Positions 7,242 through 64,000 of a DNA stretch of 64,000 nucleotides are shown here, piece by piece. Source of the DNA: Desulfosoma sp. (GTDB lineage: Bacteria; Desulfobacterota; Syntrophobacteria; Syntrophobacterales; DSM-9756); contig JBBFKY010000005.1 in NCBI GenBank assembly GCA_037481875.1, positions 124,001 to 188,000 of the forward strand, in the 5' to 3' direction. The notes beneath the pieces were generated by a model. It had not been told where the DNA came from. It worked only from the letters and a program-made list of their open reading frames with translations, and made no database searches. How positions within the stretch are numbered: position 1 is the stretch's first letter; each line of letters begins with the position of its first letter. The position numbers and the translations under genes were made by a program.

Positions 7242-9227
7242 ATGCGCATCCATCACGTGCGACGTATCAGCCAAGCCTATTTTTTGATGCTCTTTCTGTT
7301 TTTCTGTGCCGTGACTCGGGTGGGCGTCCATTGGACGGAGATTCGTGCCTGGCCCGTCAATTGGTTTCTTCAACTGAATCCACTGAATGCTTTATCCACC
7401 GCCTTAGGCACAGGAACCCTTTTTGCCGGCCTTTTTTGGGGCCTCGTGACCCTTTCGATCACGCTTCTTTTCGGACGTTTCTTCTGCGGCTGGATTTGCC
7501 CTCTGGGAACACTGCATCACCTTATGGGCTGGCTGGCGTCACGTCGTCAAACCTTTTCCCAGCGCATGGCCGACAATGCCCCACACGGAGCGCACCAACT
7601 CAAATTCTACTTCCTCTTCTTTTTTCTCGGTATGGCGTGCGGTCCACTCTGGACCCTCGATCGGTGGGCACATTGGGAAACCGGAGCCAAAACGTTTACT
7701 CTTTTGGGCGCCGTTGTCTTTCTCGTTCTGGCCACCGGGTTTCGAGAAAAACAGCTTTCCCCCAAAGCACCTTTCCGGATTGAAGAAGGTCTCCTAGGCA
7801 CCCTCGTGTTCGTTTTGGGTCTCCTTTTGGCTAGATTCCCCGCCGCTGTGGGATCATTGCAGACCGGCCTCTTGGATCCCATCGCTTTGATTCAAAGGTC
7901 ATTGAACCAAGTAGTGTTTCCGGCCCTGGGACTTTTCCAACCGCAAGGGCTTTCCGGAAACCGATGGACTCAAGGGGCCTGGCTTCTCGGAACCGTCTTT
8001 TTTACTGCTTTGGGCCTCAACTTCATCAAACCCCGTTTCTATTGCCGTTACCTCTGTCCGGCCGGAGCTCTCATGCATCTTGTGGGACAAAGATCCTTGT
8101 GGCGCATGACAAGAATCGAAGACCGCTGCACCGACTGCAAACGCTGTGAAACGGTCTGTGATGCGGCCTGTCGACCTTCCGGGGAACTCATGGCAGGGGA
8201 ATGCACTCTATGCAGCAATTGCCTGGTGATTTGTCCTGAAAAGGCTATTACTTACACTTGGGCCCAACCTGCTTTCGGAGTTTCTTCCTTGAGCCCGGTC
8301 AATTTGTCTCGACGTCGAACTTTGGCCGCTCTAGGCGTAGGACTTTTGGCTGCCCCTGTTTCTCGATTGGACGGCTTGGTGCAGCGGCGCTTTCCACCCA
8401 CCGTGGTGCGACCTCCAGGATCCCTTCCGGAACCGGAATTCTTGCGCCGATGTATCAAATGCGGTCAGTGCCTACGCATTTGTCCCACCAATGTTTTGCA
8501 GCCTGCTTTATGGGAAGCGGGCCTGGAAGGGTTGTGGACACCGGTTTTGGATTTTCGAGCGGGAACCAGCGGCTGCCAGTACCAATGTGTGGCCTGCAGC
8601 CGCATCTGTCCCACGGCGGCTATTCGCAGACTTACCTTGGACGAAAAGCATGGTACCGGGGATTTTGCTGCGCGAGGCCCTGTTCGCATCGGAGCGGCTT
8701 TTGTGGACCGAAATCGTTGCCTGCCGTGGGCGTTTGGAAAGCCATGCATTGTGTGCGAAGAAAACTGCCCTGTAAGTCCCAAGGCGATTCAGACTGTAGA
8801 AACCCTGGAAAAACTGCCGCTGCCTCCCTTATGCGTCACCGCACGCGAAGGAAACCGCTGGATCGTGCATGGGTTTCGCCCATTAGAAAATGCGGTGCCT
8901 CTGGATAACCTCTGGCTGGTTCAGGACCCTTTGGATAGGTCTCAACACTGGCCCATTCGCGATTGGGGTGACGGATGGATTCAGGTGTCTTACGTTGAGC
9001 AAACGAGCGGCCAAGGAGAGGCATCCTTTGAGGATTCTCCATGCTCTGTTTACCTTGCGGTGAAACTGAAACGCCCTGTGGTGGATCTCACGCGATGCGT
9101 TGGATGCGGTATCTGTGAGCATGAATGTCCCGTTCGAGGGGTTCCGGCCATTCGCGTTTCGCCAGAAAACGAATCGCGCCATCCAGAACGATCCCTTCTG
9201 GCAAGACGCTCATCCGGCCGATCCTGA
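7242..9227 (+). CDS. Membrane polyferredoxin (NapH/FixG-like N-terminus, NapG-like C-terminus)
   Basis: 661 residues. The N-terminal third has several membrane helices and the two NapH/FixG-type motifs FFCGWICPLG (near residue 80) and YCRYLCPAG (near 268). Then come clusters of [4Fe-4S] cysteines: CTDCKRC and CTLCSNC (about 297-330), and after a second hydrophobic stretch with RRRTLAALG (a buried Tat-like motif near 355) the sets CIKCGQC (404), CVACSRIC (448), CIVCEENC (near 505) and CVGCGIC (618). This order looks like a NapH-like quinol oxidase fused to a NapG-like ferredoxin. It probably passes electrons between the quinone pool and an exported partner, perhaps the neighbouring Tat proteins. 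It is followed after 43 bases by the aldo/keto reductase gene. Confidence 0.85.
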   Translation: MRIHHVRRISQAYFLMLFLFFCAVTRVGVHWTEIRAWPVNWFLQLNPLNALSTALGTGTLFAGLFWGLVTLSITLLFGRFFCGWICPLGTLHHLMGWLASRRQTFSQRMADNAPHGAHQLKFYFLFFFLGMACGPLWTLDRWAHWETGAKTFTLLGAVVFLVLATGFREKQLSPKAPFRIEEGLLGTLVFVLGLLLARFPAAVGSLQTGLLDPIALIQRSLNQVVFPALGLFQPQGLSGNRWTQGAWLLGTVFFTALGLNFIKPRFYCRYLCPAGALMHLVGQRSLWRMTRIEDRCTDCKRCETVCDAACRPSGELMAGECTLCSNCLVICPEKAITYTWAQPAFGVSSLSPVNLSRRRTLAALGVGLLAAPVSRLDGLVQRRFPPTVVRPPGSLPEPEFLRRCIKCGQCLRICPTNVLQPALWEAGLEGLWTPVLDFRAGTSGCQYQCVACSRICPTAAIRRLTLDEKHGTGDFAARGPVRIGAAFVDRNRCLPWAFGKPCIVCEENCPVSPKAIQTVETLEKLPLPPLCVTAREGNRWIVHGFRPLENAVPLDNLWLVQDPLDRSQHWPIRDWGDGWIQVSYVEQTSGQGEASFEDSPCSVYLAVKLKRPVVDLTRCVGCGICEHECPVRGVPAIRVSPENESRHPERSLLARRSSGRS

Positions 9228-9270
9228 AGATTAGGCATTTTGAAATGTCAAAAAACATGGAGGACTGATT

Positions 9271-10530
9271 ATGCATCGGGAAAAAGACGTGATCACCACA
9301 AGCGGTGCCGGAACCCTTTCACGCCGAAGATTCCTCAAGGCGGCCGCCATTCTAGGCCTTGCGGGAACAACGGCGACGGTTACGCAATTTCCTTCACTGG
9401 GAAAGGCTCAGGAATCGTCAACTTCCCAAAGAGTTCCCCAACGACCTTTTGGAGCTTCCAAGATTCCCGTATCCGTTTTGTCTTTGGGAGGTATGTTTGA
9501 CACAGGATCCAACCAGACTTTGCTTCGGCAGGCTTTGCGTTGGGGTGTGACTTATTGGGACACGGCGGACTGTTACGGAGGCGGTCGCAGTGAAGAGGGT
9601 ATCGGTGCTTTTTTTGCGCGATTTCCTGAAACAAGAAAAGAAGTGTTTCTGGTAACCAAATCTGATGCTCGAGATCCCGCCGGAATGACCAAACTGCTGC
9701 AACGCAGTCTGGAACGCATGCAAACGGACTGGATTGATCTGTACTTTCTGCATGCCGTAGATGACATTAAAGAACTGACACAGGATGTGCGCCGCTGGGC
9801 GGAGCAAGCAAAAGCTTCGGGGAAAATTCGCCTTTTCGGCTTCAGTACCCACGCCAATATGGCTCAGTGCCTGGAAGGAGCGGCTCGGCTGGGTTGGGTG
9901 GACGGCATAATGTTTACTTACAATTTTCGACTCATGCACGACGATGCCATGAAACGGGCCATTGACCGCTGCGTCGCCGCCGGCATTGGTCTCACAGCCA
10001 TGAAAACGCAAGGAGGCGGACCTTTTCGAGCGGATTCTTCAGCCGAAGGCGCTTTGGCCGAAAAGCTGCTGGCACGAGGTTTTACGGACAAGCAGGCCAA
10101 GCTCAAAGCCGTCTGGGAAGATACACGCATTGCGAGTATCTGTTCACAGATGCCCACCATGACCATCCTCATGAGCAATGTCGCGGCGGCCCTGGATCGA
10201 ACCTCGCTCAGCCGAGAAGAACAAAACGAATTGCGGCACTATGCCGAAGCCACTCGAAGCCAGTATTGCGCCGGATGCGCCGCTGTCTGTGCTCATGCCG
10301 CCCAAGCCCCCATCTTCGACATGATGCGAAGCCTCATGTACGCTCGGGACTATGGCGACATGGCGGCGGCGTGCGAAGTCCTGCAGCCCCTCGCGCAAGG
10401 AGGCGTCTTTGCGACCTTGAACGAGGCCCGGCTGAAAGAGGCTGAAAGACGCTGTCCTCATGGTCTTCCCCTTCGCCGCCTTGTGTCTGAAGCGGCCCAG
10501 CTTGCTCGAAACCTTAAAATATCGGTTTGA
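9271..10530 (+). CDS. Tat-exported aldo/keto reductase with C-terminal cysteine cluster
   Basis: 419 residues. A twin-arginine signal (LSRRRFLKAAA, residues 17-27) precedes an aldo/keto reductase barrel. The catalytic tetrad is recognisable: WDTADCYGGG (Asp and Tyr), VTKSD (Lys) and YFLHAVD (His). The C-terminal third is all-helical with CAGCAAVC and a later RCPHG, resembling the iron-sulfur extension of the MJ1432-type reductases, though one cysteine of a standard CxxCxxC set is displaced. Export of a nicotinamide-type barrel is unusual, so the electron donor may be an iron-sulfur protein instead. ATG 9271 follows ATGGAGGA at about six bases. Same direction and close to the polyferredoxin. 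Confidence 0.85.
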   Translation: MHREKDVITTSGAGTLSRRRFLKAAAILGLAGTTATVTQFPSLGKAQESSTSQRVPQRPFGASKIPVSVLSLGGMFDTGSNQTLLRQALRWGVTYWDTADCYGGGRSEEGIGAFFARFPETRKEVFLVTKSDARDPAGMTKLLQRSLERMQTDWIDLYFLHAVDDIKELTQDVRRWAEQAKASGKIRLFGFSTHANMAQCLEGAARLGWVDGIMFTYNFRLMHDDAMKRAIDRCVAAGIGLTAMKTQGGGPFRADSSAEGALAEKLLARGFTDKQAKLKAVWEDTRIASICSQMPTMTILMSNVAAALDRTSLSREEQNELRHYAEATRSQYCAGCAAVCAHAAQAPIFDMMRSLMYARDYGDMAAACEVLQPLAQGGVFATLNEARLKEAERRCPHGLPLRRLVSEAAQLARNLKISV

Positions 10531-59003: not shown

Positions 59004-59948
59004 TCAACTCAAAAGGGTCTCATCTCCAGCCACCCGGCGAACCAAGTCGCGATAGTCCCTGGCTCCAGGAGATCCCGGCGCATATTCGTAAATGGTCTTG
59101 CCATACCCGGGCGCTTCGGACAGCCGCACGTTGTAACGAATAGGGGCACACATCCGGCTGTTGTAATGGGCGCTCAGCTGCTCGAGGATTTCTTCCGATT
59201 GCTTGACACGCTTGTCCAGGAAGGTGGGTACCACGTATTTGAGTGCAAGATCTTTGTGATAGTTCTGGACGGAGGCCAGGCTTCGACTGAATTCCAAAAG
59301 ACCTTGAATGGCCATCACTTCCAGACTTACCGGAATCAAGACTTCCTTGACATAAAACAGCACGTTGATGGTCAACACATCCCATCCCGGCGAAGTATCC
59401 ACAATCACGTAATCAAAGCGGTCCTCAATGGGCGTGAGGGCCTCGGTGAGGGTCATTTCCCCGCGAAAGTCTTTGCGTGCAATGAGGCGTTTCACCCCTG
59501 CCAAAGAACGCCCTCCGGCCAGAAGCCACAAGCGCTCTCGAGCCTGGACCAGGCATTCCTCGGGGATAACCTCACCGGTCATGAGTTCCGTGAGACCCGC
59601 TTTTGGCTTCACTCCGAGCATGTAGGACGCCTGCCCTTGCGTGTCGGTATCCACCAAAAGCACTTTAAAACCAGCCATGGCTAATCCCGCGGCAAGATTG
59701 ACCGCCGTGGTCGTTTTGCCCACACCCCCTTTGCTTAAAGAGACGGCAATGCGACGCTTGGGCCATCGCGCCTCCTGAGCCGCCTGTTGAGGCTGCGGCG
59801 CCTTTGCCCCTTCCTGTTCCCCATCGGAAGGTCTCGGTAAGGGAAACCGATGACCGCAAAAGACACATTTTGCGGCCTTCACCTTTTCAGAAAGGCGAGT
59901 CTCATCCACCTTGTGCTGCCGATTGCAGCTGGGACACACGATAATCAT
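59004..59948 (-). CDS. ParA-family ATPase with N-terminal zinc ribbon
   Basis: 314 residues. Residues 1-35 form an MJ0042-type zinc ribbon (Cys5, 8, 28, 31), followed by a Pro/Gln linker and a ParA/MinD ATPase from about 66: deviant Walker A KGGVGKTT (73-80), VLLVDTDTQGQASYMLG and VIVDTSPG. Such ATPases form dynamic patterns on nucleoid or membrane and place cargo. The extra metal-binding head is unusual and may contact a partner. ATG 59948 overlaps the stop of the preceding gene as ATGA and has GAGG upstream. No parS-like repeats are seen nearby. Confidence 0.85.
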   Translation of the reverse strand: MIIVCPSCNRQHKVDETRLSEKVKAAKCVFCGHRFPLPRPSDGEQEGAKAPQPQQAAQEARWPKRRIAVSLSKGGVGKTTTAVNLAAGLAMAGFKVLLVDTDTQGQASYMLGVKPKAGLTELMTGEVIPEECLVQARERLWLLAGGRSLAGVKRLIARKDFRGEMTLTEALTPIEDRFDYVIVDTSPGWDVLTINVLFYVKEVLIPVSLEVMAIQGLLEFSRSLASVQNYHKDLALKYVVPTFLDKRVKQSEEILEQLSAHYNSRMCAPIRYNVRLSEAPGYGKTIYEYAPGSPGARDYRDLVRRVAGDETLLS

Positions 59949-60382
59949 GGGACCTCTTCTCCTGATGACTTCCTGGAAACCTGTACGGTTTCTTTGGGTT
60001 TTCGGCACACCTCGTGAACCATTTGAAACAATCGACTCTTGGGCCCCTTGGCGTCCAGTTCCTGAAGTGCTGTTCGTAAAGCCGTCTCAACGATCACGGA
60101 TTTGGAAATCCTCGGTTTGGATTCATCCGATGGAGCGTCCAACAAGATATGTTGCGCTTTCTCCAAGTGTTGAATGATCAGCTTGGTAAGATAATAGGTA
60201 ACCTTCTTTTTCGGCTGAGCATCTTTGGGCCGAGTCAAAGTCCCTTTGCGGTCATCATGCCCGGCTGAGGCGTTTCGGTGTTCCAAGCGCCTTAAGTAAA
60301 AAGCCAACCGTTCAAGGATGTCGTTTTCTTCTGTGGTGACCTTGGGCTCTTCCCCACGGAGCAAGGCCCCCATAATGTCCAT
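59945..60382 (-). CDS. Ribbon-helix-helix-like partner of the ParA ATPase
   Basis: 145 residues with no family I recognise. The C-terminal half (about 70-135) reads like a ribbon-helix-helix DNA-binding domain: KKKVTYYLTKLIIQHLEKA then RISKSVIVETALRTALQEL, joined by an acidic loop. The N-terminal half is charged and probably disordered. Its stop overlaps the ParA start as ATGA, typical of ParA with its DNA-binding or adaptor partner. ATG 60382 with GGAGG six bases upstream is preferred; an upstream ATG at 60469 would add 29 residues. Confidence 0.55.
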   Translation of the reverse strand: MDIMGALLRGEEPKVTTEENDILERLAFYLRRLEHRNASAGHDDRKGTLTRPKDAQPKKKVTYYLTKLIIQHLEKAQHILLDAPSDESKPRISKSVIVETALRTALQELDAKGPKSRLFQMVHEVCRKPKETVQVSRKSSGEEVP

Positions 60383-60515
60383 CGGTTCCTCCTTACGAGA
60401 CGGCGCCACCGGAGATCCTCCTGTCCAACCCAGCTTTTCAAAGCCCCAAAACAATTCTCCCATGTTCATGCACCTTTGACGGCTTTAGGGGGCTCTGCCT
60501 TCAGAGGCATGTGCC

Positions 60516-60938
60516 TCAATTCTGCTCGAAAAACCGTTCGCGGGCTTTTTGCACGAAATCCACCATGAAATCCCTATCCGCGTCATTTTTCAGTTCGAGA
60601 GAAAGACCGTACAAGAATCCTGAACCTTCAAGGGGGGTCACATGTCGAACGGTTCCGTAAGCCTGAAGATGCCTATCGCCGAACCGCAATTCCACGGAGT
60701 CCAATCCCTGACCGATCTGGGCCAAGTTTCCGGAATCCGCCAAAAATCCCACACCGCCTTCACTGATATTGGCTACACGGAAAGAAACGCCTTGGATGAA
60801 CAAGCTGACCGGTGTTTGTTCGTTGACGGGAACACGAAAGGTTTTTCGAACCACCGTCTGTTCCTCAAAAACACCGGTCAGTTCCAACGTTTCCTCTAAG
60901 TCCTTGAGTTCTTCCAGAAGATTGTCTTTGTTCGTCAT
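60516..60938 (-). CDS. PilZ-domain protein
   Basis: 140 residues. An N-terminal acidic helix leads into a PilZ barrel with the c-di-GMP signature: R31xxxR35 in RKTFRVPV and N57xSxxG62 in NISEGGVGF. It should bind cyclic di-GMP. No other domain is attached. ATG 60938 has GGAGG eight bases upstream. It precedes the RHH/ParA pair by 133 bases on the same strand and may regulate or use it. Confidence 0.88.
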   Translation of the reverse strand: MTNKDNLLEELKDLEETLELTGVFEEQTVVRKTFRVPVNEQTPVSLFIQGVSFRVANISEGGVGFLADSGNLAQIGQGLDSVELRFGDRHLQAYGTVRHVTPLEGSGFLYGLSLELKNDADRDFMVDFVQKARERFFEQN

Positions 60939-61139
60939 CGATGTTTCCTCCATGCCCATGACGGCGTGCCTTGATCTGTTTCAACCATTTTAGTATTCGG
61001 CATCTTGACGGCTGACCTTAAATACTTTTGAAACCGATGCATCCTCAGCCTTCCTTGAAAAAGCGAATGGAGCGCCTTATAGTCAAAGGGCGTCATTGAA
61101 AGACGCATTCAGCGGACAAACCGAAAGGCTAGGTGCCCC

Positions 61140-62933
61140 ATGAGTGATCAGTGCCAAAAATTTCCGGATCAAGAAGAACTGGAAAGGGAGCTCAGCGAAT
61201 TCCTTTCCAAGAAATACGGACGCCAGATCAGGGTCATTTCCCCCATGATGGTTGCCCACCCCAAAGCAGGCGAATCCAAAAAGTCTTCGTCGGAAAAGGT
61301 GCGTCAGATTCAGTTTGACATGAAACCCGAAGAGCTGGAAGCCTACCTCGACCAATACGTGGTCAAGCAGGAGCAGGCCAAGGCCATTTTGGCGACCAAG
61401 ATCTGCACGCATTACAACCGTATCAAGTGGCGCTTGGAACGGGGACATCGAAACGCCGATCCCATCGGGCGCATTAAGAACAACATTATCCTGATGGGCC
61501 CCACCGGAGTGGGGAAAACCTATCTTATCAAGCTGATTGCTCAGAAGATCGGTGTTCCTTTCGTCAAGGGAGATGCCACCAAGTTCAGCGAAACAGGCTA
61601 TGTGGGCGGAGATGTGGAAGACTTGGTGCGAGACCTGGTGCGTGCCGCCGATGATGATCTGGAACTGGCCCAGTACGGAATCATTTACATTGACGAAATC
61701 GATAAGATCGCTTCCTCTTCACAGCTTATCGGACCTGATGTGTCGCGAACCGGTGTTCAGCGAGCCTTGTTAAAGCCCATGGAAGAGACCGAAGTGGATC
61801 TACGGGTTCCTCATGATCCCATCTCCCAACTGCAGGCCATCGAACAATACCGAAGAACCGGCAAAAGGGACAAGCAAACCATCAACACCAAAAACATTCT
61901 CTTTATCGTCAGTGGCGCTTTTAACGGTTTGGCCGAAATCGTCAAAAAACGCCTGCAACAGCAAGGTGTGGGATTTCGCGCCGCCGTTCACAGTCGCACA
62001 GACGACCACAAGTTCCTTCAGCACGTCAAAGCGGAAGACCTCATCGAATATGGATTTGAAAGTGAGTTCGTGGGGCGTCTTCCCGTGATCGCTGTTTTGG
62101 AACCTTTGGAAGTGGAAGATTTGTATCAAATCCTGAAGAATCCAAACAGTCCGATCATTCAAGGGAAAAAAGAGGATTTTCGCTGCTACGGGATCGATCT
62201 TAAATTCCAGGACGAGGCTCTGTGGACCTTGGCGGAAATGGCTTACCAGGAAAGAACGGGAGCAAGAGGGCTGGTGAGTGTCATCGAGCGGATCTTGTTG
62301 GGATTTGAGAAACGCTTGCCGTCCACCTCCATTCGCCATTTGGTGGTGACCAAGGACCTGGTCCTGCATCCCCAGGAAGCTTTGGAAGCCATTCTTAAGG
62401 ATCCGGATTCGCCCCAGCAGCGTGAGCTTTATGAACGGATGGTGCGAGAGGAAAAAGAAGCCGTTCATCAACAGGTCCTCAAGAAAAAGAAACATTACGT
62501 CCACAACTATCCCTTCGTCTTTACGCCGGGACGGTTGGAACTCTTGGTGGATCAGCATGTGAAAACCGGAGAACCCATCGAAGGGCTCTTTGACGCCATG
62601 ATCACCATGTATAACCAGATCAAGGTTTTTGAAGAAGAATTTCACGACCATCAGGGTTTTAAAATCCATTTCGACGATCAGGCTATGACCGCCATTATGA
62701 TCAAGGCCTTGACGGAGGATAAGACAGCCACGGCTGTGTGTCGGGAAATTTCGCGGGATTACGACTATGCCTTTCGACTGGTCGCCGAAAGAAGCGGTCA
62801 GATTCAATTCATTCTCCCCAAGGGTGCCGTGGATGCTCCGGAAGCCTACCTGGATGAACTCATTCGGGACACCTACCGCAAGCACCCTCTCCCTGAGGAA
62901 AAGGCCTCATCGCAGAAAGGATCGACCTCATGA
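61140..62933 (+). CDS. ClpX-like AAA+ ATPase with long C-terminal extension
   Basis: 597 residues against about 420 for ClpX. The AAA+ core resembles ClpX: Walker A GPTGVGKT (120-127), pore loop ETGYVGGD (near 153), Walker B IIYIDEID (181-188) and EFVGRLPVIAVLEPL. The N-terminal zinc-binding domain of ClpX is absent, and the ClpP-docking IGF tripeptide reads VGF (277-279), so ClpP partnership is uncertain. The C-terminal 200 residues have no recognised domain. Its stop overlaps the ahbC start as ATGA. ATG 61140 has a weak site (AGG at about eight bases). Divergent from the PilZ gene. Confidence 0.8.
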   Translation: MSDQCQKFPDQEELERELSEFLSKKYGRQIRVISPMMVAHPKAGESKKSSSEKVRQIQFDMKPEELEAYLDQYVVKQEQAKAILATKICTHYNRIKWRLERGHRNADPIGRIKNNIILMGPTGVGKTYLIKLIAQKIGVPFVKGDATKFSETGYVGGDVEDLVRDLVRAADDDLELAQYGIIYIDEIDKIASSSQLIGPDVSRTGVQRALLKPMEETEVDLRVPHDPISQLQAIEQYRRTGKRDKQTINTKNILFIVSGAFNGLAEIVKKRLQQQGVGFRAAVHSRTDDHKFLQHVKAEDLIEYGFESEFVGRLPVIAVLEPLEVEDLYQILKNPNSPIIQGKKEDFRCYGIDLKFQDEALWTLAEMAYQERTGARGLVSVIERILLGFEKRLPSTSIRHLVVTKDLVLHPQEALEAILKDPDSPQQRELYERMVREEKEAVHQQVLKKKKHYVHNYPFVFTPGRLELLVDQHVKTGEPIEGLFDAMITMYNQIKVFEEEFHDHQGFKIHFDDQAMTAIMIKALTEDKTATAVCREISRDYDYAFRLVAERSGQIQFILPKGAVDAPEAYLDELIRDTYRKHPLPEEKASSQKGSTS

Positions 62934-64000
62934 TCGGTATTTCCAAGCTGTACTGCGGCACCGTGGAACCTTCGGACGCCTTGCGCTACGGTCGCCGCAG
63001 CGGAGAACTCCCTTCGCATCTTTTACAGTTTTCCCAGGACAAAAAGCCTGTCGTGGTCTGGAACATGACCCGTCGATGCAATCTCAAATGCGTTCACTGC
63101 TACGCTCAGGCTCTGGATCGCCATTTTCCCGATGAACTGACCACGGCTGAAGGGAAACTTCTTCTGGACGATTTGGCCGCCTTTGGGTGCCCCGTGGTTC
63201 TGTTTTCAGGTGGAGAACCTCTCATGAGGCCGGATCTCGTGGAACTGGCCGCTTATGCCGTAGAGAAAGGTATGCGTGCCGTTGTTTCCACCAACGGCAC
63301 CTTGATCACGCCCGGCATCGCTCAGGAACTGAGACACATAGGGCTTTCGTACGTAGGCATCAGTCTGGACGGCATGGAATCGGTCAATGATCGGTTTCGA
63401 GGGGTCAAAGGGGCGTTTCAAAGGGCGATGGAAGGGATTGCCGCCTGCCGGGAAGCCGGCATCAAGGTGGGGTTACGCTTCACCATGAATCGACGGAACG
63501 CCGCCGAAATCCCGGCTATCTTTGATCTGTTGGAATCCCAAGATATTCCGAGGGTCTGCTTTTATCATTTGGTGTATGCCGGTCGAGGCTCCAAGCTCAT
63601 GGAAGAAGATCTCACTCATGAAGAAACGCGGCGTGCCGTGGATCTTATCATCGATCGTACAGCGGATCTGCATCGACGCGGAAAACCCAAGGAAGTGCTC
63701 ACGGTGGACAACCACGCCGACGGTCCCTACGTCTACCTGCGCCTGCTTCGAGAAGGGTCTCCTCGAGCACCGGATGTTCTCAAACTTCTGGAAATGAATG
63801 AAGGCAACAATTCCGGGCGAGGAATCGGCTGTGTGAGTTGGGATGGTCAGGTGCATGCGGACCAGTTTTGGAGGCATTATTCCTTCGGCAATGTTCGGCA
63901 ACGACCCTTCAGCGCCATCTGGACCGATCTTTCCAATCCCCTCATGGCTCGCTTGAAGGACAAGAAAACCTACGTGAAAGGCCGATGCGCTCAATGCCGC
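62930..64000 (+). CDS. ahbC: AhbC-like radical SAM enzyme (12,18-didecarboxysiroheme deacetylase), partial
   Basis: 357 codons visible; the 3' end lies beyond the window. The start MIGISKLYCGTVEPSDALRY matches AhbC of the siroheme-dependent heme pathway as I recall it. The radical SAM motif RRCNLKCVHC (CX3CX2C) and the VVLFSGGEP signature follow, and the truncated end (GIGCVSWDG, GRCAQC) begins the auxiliary-cluster cysteines. AhbC removes acetyl side chains on the way from siroheme to heme, typical of sulfate reducers. ATG 62930 overlaps the ClpX-like stop as ATGA. Distinction from AhbD rests on the N-terminus. Confidence 0.82.
   Translation, partial: MIGISKLYCGTVEPSDALRYGRRSGELPSHLLQFSQDKKPVVVWNMTRRCNLKCVHCYAQALDRHFPDELTTAEGKLLLDDLAAFGCPVVLFSGGEPLMRPDLVELAAYAVEKGMRAVVSTNGTLITPGIAQELRHIGLSYVGISLDGMESVNDRFRGVKGAFQRAMEGIAACREAGIKVGLRFTMNRRNAAEIPAIFDLLESQDIPRVCFYHLVYAGRGSKLMEEDLTHEETRRAVDLIIDRTADLHRRGKPKEVLTVDNHADGPYVYLRLLREGSPRAPDVLKLLEMNEGNNSGRGIGCVSWDGQVHADQFWRHYSFGNVRQRPFSAIWTDLSNPLMARLKDKKTYVKGRCAQCR

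Follow-up and report, generated by a model that had tools for sequence, protein, structure and literature searches.

In the analysed window, which comes from a bacterium of the sulfate-reducer type, the gene immediately upstream of ahbC encodes a ClpX-like AAA+ unfoldase, referred to here as ClpXL, whose sequence features place it in a distinct and apparently undescribed subfamily. The clpXL-ahbC neighbourhood is ancient and common to many related bacteria. Considering the protein motifs together with genomic context, we regard ClpXL as probably a quality-control or regulatory unfoldase, either ClpP-linked or free-standing, that was recruited once into a siroheme-dependent heme operon. A limited literature search, which is no proof of novelty, found no paper joining clpX with ahbC or a ClpX-like protein with Desulfobacter.

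Gene organization of the clpXL locus

The window is the whole 64,000-nucleotide stretch analysed (C5:124001-188000) and belongs to a 3.4-Mb genome of 19 contigs. The clpXL reading frame has an ATG start and a TGA stop and overlaps the ATG of ahbC by four bases (ATGA). The features of this locus are as follows.

61140..62933, + strand: clpXL, ClpX-like AAA+ unfoldase, 597 amino acids (open reading frame, NCBIfam and Pfam profiles, tree)
62916..62921, + strand: AAAGGA, Shine-Dalgarno-like, 8 bases 5' of the ahbC start (sequence; putative)
62930..64000, + strand: ahbC, 12,18-didecarboxysiroheme deacetylase, cut at the window end (TIGR04546 equivalog)

The complete ahbC encodes 396 amino acids (L009:6930-8120). 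Just beyond the window end come hemB (8139-9113) and ahbD (9122-10249), the latter being another SPASM radical SAM gene; the gene unit is clpXL-ahbC-hemB-ahbD. All three products were identified with NCBIfam models: AhbC by a full-length TIGR04546 match above the equivalog cut-off (769.8 bits versus 650), HemB as porphobilinogen synthase (534 versus 297), and AhbD by TIGR04545 (580 versus 500). Both the four-base overlap and the AhbC-like nature of the downstream product, as given in a preliminary description of this DNA, are thus borne out. The overlap suggests translational coupling of clpXL and ahbC, and ClpXL is probably co-expressed with AhbC; given the AAAGGA element, ahbC may also be translated independently. 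The exact 4-bp overlap is a local feature, as other genomes commonly have a gap of 3-30 bp and occasionally of more than 100 bp.

Divergent from clpXL, the minus strand of the window (59004-60959) carries genes for a PilZ-domain protein (60516-60959), a 174-amino acid product that matches no family, and a ParA/MinD-like ATPase whose N-terminal part has four cysteines (CPSC, CVFC) arranged like a zinc ribbon. Relatives also occur close to clpXL elsewhere in this genus and in a second genus of the family (L122, L123 and L125).

Domain architecture of ClpXL

ClpX models gave the best NCBIfam matches to ClpXL, and no cysteine cluster occurs within residues 1-60, where C5 is the single cysteine. 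The protein had been described as a ClpX-type AAA+ protein without the zinc domain, and this holds. ClpXL stays below both ClpX equivalog cut-offs (NF003745, 335.3 versus 359 bits; TIGR00382, 313.3 versus 370.75 bits) and far below that of HslU (TIGR00390, 173 versus 362 bits). HslU belongs to the same AAA+ group and shares the small-domain fold and some motif wording (ATKFxExGYVG); unlike HslU, ClpXL keeps the xGF docking tripeptide. The following domains and motifs were assigned, all on the plus strand.

61161..61217, +: conserved N-terminal helix motif FPDQEELERELSEFLSKKY, residues 8-26, at the place of the zinc domain of canonical ClpX (alignment, family variants, model)
61320..62090, +: large AAA+ domain, about residues 61-317 (Pfam AAA_2 at 114-317; model)
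61497..61520, +: Walker A, GPTGVGKT, residues 120-127 (family motif comparison)
61596..61607, +: pore-1 loop GYVG, residues 153-156 (in 116 of 116 family members)
61680..61697, +: Walker B, IIYIDE, residues 181-186 (family motif comparison)
61968..61976, +: ClpP-docking tripeptide VGF, residues 277-279 ([IVML]GF in 116 of 116; PMC8745299, PMC13125188)
62091..62375, +: first small AAA+ domain, residues 318-412, with sensor-2 TGAR at 373-376 (Pfam ClpB_D2-small, hhalign, model, motif comparison)
62376..62594, +: helical linker, residues 413-485 (alignment, predicted models)
62595..62897, +: degenerate second copy of the small AAA+ domain, about residues 486-586, without the sensor-2 GAR (hhalign, fold matches, tandem profile matches)

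Motifs were counted in 116 distinct ClpXL members and in 64 other ClpX-type proteins. Walker A and B are conserved across the ClpXL members and sensor 2 reads TGAR in 115 of them, while the RKH substrate loop is present in none, compared to 60 of the 64 other proteins. The predicted model of the whole protein (mean pLDDT 79, pTM 0.67) places a helix at residues 11-26 with low confidence. From these motifs, ClpXL is likely to form an unfoldase ring that uses ATP to pass proteins through its GYVG pore loops.

Over about 350 residues ClpXL is 40-45% identical to ClpX, with which it shares the large and small AAA+ domains, the Walker motifs, GYVG, the xGF tripeptide and the sensor-2 GAR. It differs from ClpX by the absent zinc domain and RKH loop, by the extra linker and second small domain, by its scores under the ClpX equivalog cut-offs, and by its position outside the ClpX clade.

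Two other types of related protein occur in the same genome, namely a standard 419-amino acid ClpX on contig C4, encoded beside clpP and having the zinc domain, and HslU on contig C2. A third ClpX paralog (G000:C6:100853-102010; L262:5854-7011, minus strand) has about 385 amino acids and lacks the zinc domain, RKH and the xGF tripeptide. Its missing docking tripeptide was read by eye and contrasts with ClpXL, which keeps it; for this reason the third paralog is probably ClpP-independent. No Pfam match was obtained for the three reading frames beside it.

C-terminal extension

ClpXL had been credited with a 200-residue C-terminal extension. An extension is present and covers about 185 residues past the first small domain; as judged from profile alignments and predicted models, it is mainly a second, degenerate ClpX small AAA+ domain after a helical linker. 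Pfam gave no match above cut-off for residues 411-597. When the second half of the extension was aligned with ClpXL's own first small domain, hhalign returned 97% and an E-value of 2e-11. Predicted alone, this second half has a mean pLDDT of 94, and all 50 VIA-align 2 matches listed for it are ClpX or HslU, over their small domains, the best reaching Z 8.7 for 80 aligned residues (2.2 A). Among Verrucomicrobiota members, the stretch immediately preceding the extension is matched by the extension profile as well, with E-values down to 2.6e-9. Taken together, the VIA-align 2 score, the hhalign result and the tandem profile matches point to tandem small domains, the second being degenerate, with TAT where the first has GAR. 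These three lines carry the fold assignment jointly, since the Foldseek matches alone are weak (the 50 listed are all ClpX or HslU, the best E-value being 0.13 and none below 0.001). We also considered an unrelated new domain and rejected it, because the listed PDB matches are ClpX or HslU and the extension can be aligned to the first small domain of ClpXL itself. By alignment, about 60 residues of the linker are missing from the Latescibacterota and Verrucomicrobiota members.

Distribution and genomic context of clpXL

Among the nearest relatives, a clpXL match was found in 40 of 40 genomes, the best match being mostly near full-length and in two cases split or truncated. For the phylum as a whole, 345 Desulfobacterota genomes were scored, clpXL by the extension profile and ahbC by an E-value of 1e-190 or better. 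This analysis detected clpXL in 162 and ahbC in 171 genomes; 112 genomes have both, 50 have clpXL only, 59 have ahbC only and 124 have neither (Fisher p 7e-12, uncorrected for shared ancestry). The 1e-190 line was our choice, and under it the weaker AhbC/NirJ-like scores (1e-115 to 1e-180) of 21 genomes counted as negative; none of these genomes carries clpXL, so a looser line would enlarge the ahbC-only class.

Both genes could be placed in 103 Desulfobacterota genomes; in 77 of these, from 22 families, ahbC follows clpXL directly and in the same orientation (76 cases by script plus one with a zero gap; families counted by hand from family codes). The adjacency persists over deep divergence, with members about 50% identical, while the genes flanking the cluster change. 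At this frequency and taxonomic breadth, the link between clpXL and the ahb genes is not a local accident or chance. The link proposed in the preliminary description is therefore deep and recurrent; dedication to AhbC is not supported, given that 50 of the 162 clpXL-bearing genomes have no ahbC. That description had also held that the coupling would be incidental if the AAA+ gene occurred widely without ahb genes. Such occurrence was found in these 50 genomes and at 13 Latescibacterota and Verrucomicrobiota loci, whose genomes have no ahbC above the cut-off. Conversely, 59 of the 171 genomes with ahbC have no clpXL, and in most of them ahbC-hemB-ahbD are still together. Obligate co-occurrence was accordingly rejected, and ClpXL does not appear to be required for AhbC as such, since genomes have one without the other. 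A tail or tag on AhbC that tracks clpXL was likewise rejected: by eye, the termini are alike and no obvious addition distinguishes genomes with and without an adjacent clpXL.

Several other contexts were observed. At 17 loci from 10 families, clpXL is followed by a dnaJ-type gene encoding a J domain and a DnaJ C-terminal domain, and ahbC is missing or located elsewhere (L177, L178, L181, L182, L186, L187, L193, L202-L204, L207, L210, L211 and L213-L216); in places clpXL and dnaJ overlap by 4 bp. This arrangement, known from synteny alone, suggests that a J protein works together with this ClpX-type machine. At nine loci from eight families that have no ahbC, hemB comes after clpXL, and a receiver-domain reading frame often separates the two. 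Such a receiver-domain frame also lies within the roughly 360-390 bases that separate clpXL from ahbC in families f30, f65 and f89. In several deep-branching lineages (L179, L180, L188-L192 and L220-L224), the space between clpXL and hemB or ahbC is occupied by a reading frame of about 120 amino acids, receiver-domain-like where checked, whose product is a possible regulator of heme genes. An MFS-type transporter gene, recognized by eye, follows hemB at some loci where ahbC is absent (L179, L180, L183, L188 and L190-L192). Several genomes have clpXL with neither a heme nor a dnaJ neighbour. In the Verrucomicrobiota group sampled, 22 of 96 genomes have the ClpXL family, and its neighbours there share no common theme (cyclase, histidine kinase, UbiE, TPR, GlgB and others).

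Phylogeny of ClpXL

A quick tree was built from the shared AAA+ part of canonical ClpX, ClpXL, HslU and the third paralog. In this tree, the 22 canonical ClpX proteins form one clade (SH-aLRT 99) with ClpXL outside; Desulfobacterota and Latescibacterota ClpXL form one clade (99) and Verrucomicrobiota ClpXL another (95). With HslU and the third paralog as long branches, this AAA+ tree does not settle a single ClpXL clade. The shared N-terminal motif, the missing RKH and the second small domain nevertheless suggest that all ClpXL proteins are one group.

Genomic contexts were compared with a second tree of 68 Desulfobacterota members and two outgroup rows (LG+G4, quick search). A single clade (SH-aLRT 99) contains the heme-linked members; those linked to dnaJ make up several branches outside it. 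Context tracks the gene tree, with seven changes for four contexts across the 68 rows. The simplest reading of this pattern would be a single ancient gain of the heme link, retained beside hemB where ahbC is absent.

The same correspondence between context and gene tree would also be expected if clpXL and the ahb genes shared an operon by old inheritance without any functional interplay, and the frequent separate occurrence of clpXL and ahbC agrees with this explanation. However, the adjacency has survived deep divergence while the outer flanking genes changed, and clpXL remains beside hemB where ahbC is missing. We therefore consider an incidental neighbourhood possible, at a likelihood well short of even.

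Probable ClpP docking and possible protein turnover

The preliminary description had stressed a VGF in place of the ClpP-docking IGF. The VGF is indeed present; the implied loss of docking is not supported. The tripeptide is conserved in the family, reading IGF in 86, VGF in 11, MGF in 10 and LGF in 9 of the 116 members. The docking motif is (L/I/V)-G-(F/L), and VGF is among the common binding epitopes of Clp ATPases (PMC8745299); VGF of ClpXL fits this motif and MGF is a conservative variant. In ClpE, the VGF loop engages the H-sites of ClpP, and replacing VGF with GGR leaves the interaction with ClpP deficient (PMC13125188). Because VGF docks ClpP in ClpE and ClpC and the tripeptide is conserved, lost docking was rejected as an interpretation. 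Full conservation of the docking tripeptide keeps an ordinary ClpP partnership likely, and the conserved ATPase, pore and docking motifs together make an active, probably ClpP-linked unfoldase the default assumption.

Two Verrucomicrobiota genomes of about 0.92 Mb (L257 and L258; G423 and G444) were observed to keep ClpXL and ClpP. No canonical or second ClpX-type match was found in them at an E-value of 1e-25; in their relatives, clpX adjoins clpP. Both also keep two Hsp100-type proteins, and since one of these could serve ClpP instead, the ClpXL-ClpP partnership is supported rather than proven.

A ClpP-linked ClpXL could degrade AhbC, HemB, AhbD or their damaged forms, and feedback or oxygen stress would then tune heme synthesis. 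The docking tripeptide in all members, the single true clpP gene of the source genome, the operon position of clpXL and the receiver-domain frames that, in several deep lineages, separate clpXL from ahbC or hemB are in keeping with such regulated proteolysis. On the other hand, the AhbC termini show no degron-like difference, and the dnaJ and Verrucomicrobiota contexts point toward other substrates. We consider this explanation rather unlikely. The likelihoods assigned to the different readings add up to more than one because quality control or regulation, the reading we favour, overlaps with turnover of this kind.

Comparison with other ClpX systems and proposed role

ClpX3 of Myxococcus xanthus (MXAN_2743) has neither the N-terminal domain nor RKH and is needed for normal growth at 36 C, its deletion mutant growing poorly at high temperature (PMC11423568). 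ClpX3 and ClpXL are both divergent ClpX proteins without the N-terminal zinc domain and RKH, and are likened by these features alone; the third paralog on contig C6 may be a nearer relative of ClpX3 than ClpXL is.

We know of no cofactor-loading step in the linked heme enzymes for which the need of an unfoldase is known. A precedent for an unfoldase in heme synthesis is mitochondrial ClpX, which activates ALAS without proteolysis in a reaction that requires ATP hydrolysis and the pore loops (PMC7077987). Both proteins are ClpX-type unfoldases tied to heme synthesis; the mitochondrial target is a PLP enzyme of the first step, whereas the partners of ClpXL are ahbC, hemB and ahbD, by gene order only. 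By analogy, ClpXL might partly unfold AhbC, HemB or AhbD to allow the entry or exit of an Fe-S cluster, metal or substrate. Beyond the mitochondrial precedent, the gene order conserved over 22 families and the position of clpXL 5' of hemB in eight families without ahbC speak for such an activase. Set against it are the 59 genomes with AhbC and no ClpXL, including intact ahbC-hemB-ahbD sets, the reverse situation in 50 genomes and 13 other loci, the absence of any AhbC-side feature that tracks clpXL, and the retained ClpP-docking motif. We hold a dedicated activase to be improbable, and one dedicated to AhbC is disfavoured. The more detailed version, in which ClpXL of the heme clade activates or repairs siroheme-pathway enzymes and uses its second small domain and N-terminal helix for enzyme-specific docking, is equally doubtful; if true, it would make ClpXL an independent bacterial counterpart of the mitochondrial ClpX-ALAS system.

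Under the favoured reading of ClpXL as a quality-control or regulatory unfoldase, the protein would feed ClpP or act alone with J-protein help, and its altered N- and C-terminal regions would determine its own range of substrates. Within one large clade ClpXL became part of the clpXL-ahbC-hemB-ahbD unit, where it probably acts on heme-synthesis enzymes or clients. A dedicated heme role is possible, and the retention of the heme link across 22 families may indicate one more specific than quality control. ClpXL would thus represent a widespread ClpX-like subfamily of large-small-small architecture whose scores with automatic models fall narrowly short of the ClpX cut-off, and its ancient place before ahbC, hemB and ahbD makes the involvement of a bacterial ClpX-type unfoldase in heme synthesis, as in mitochondria, a testable idea.
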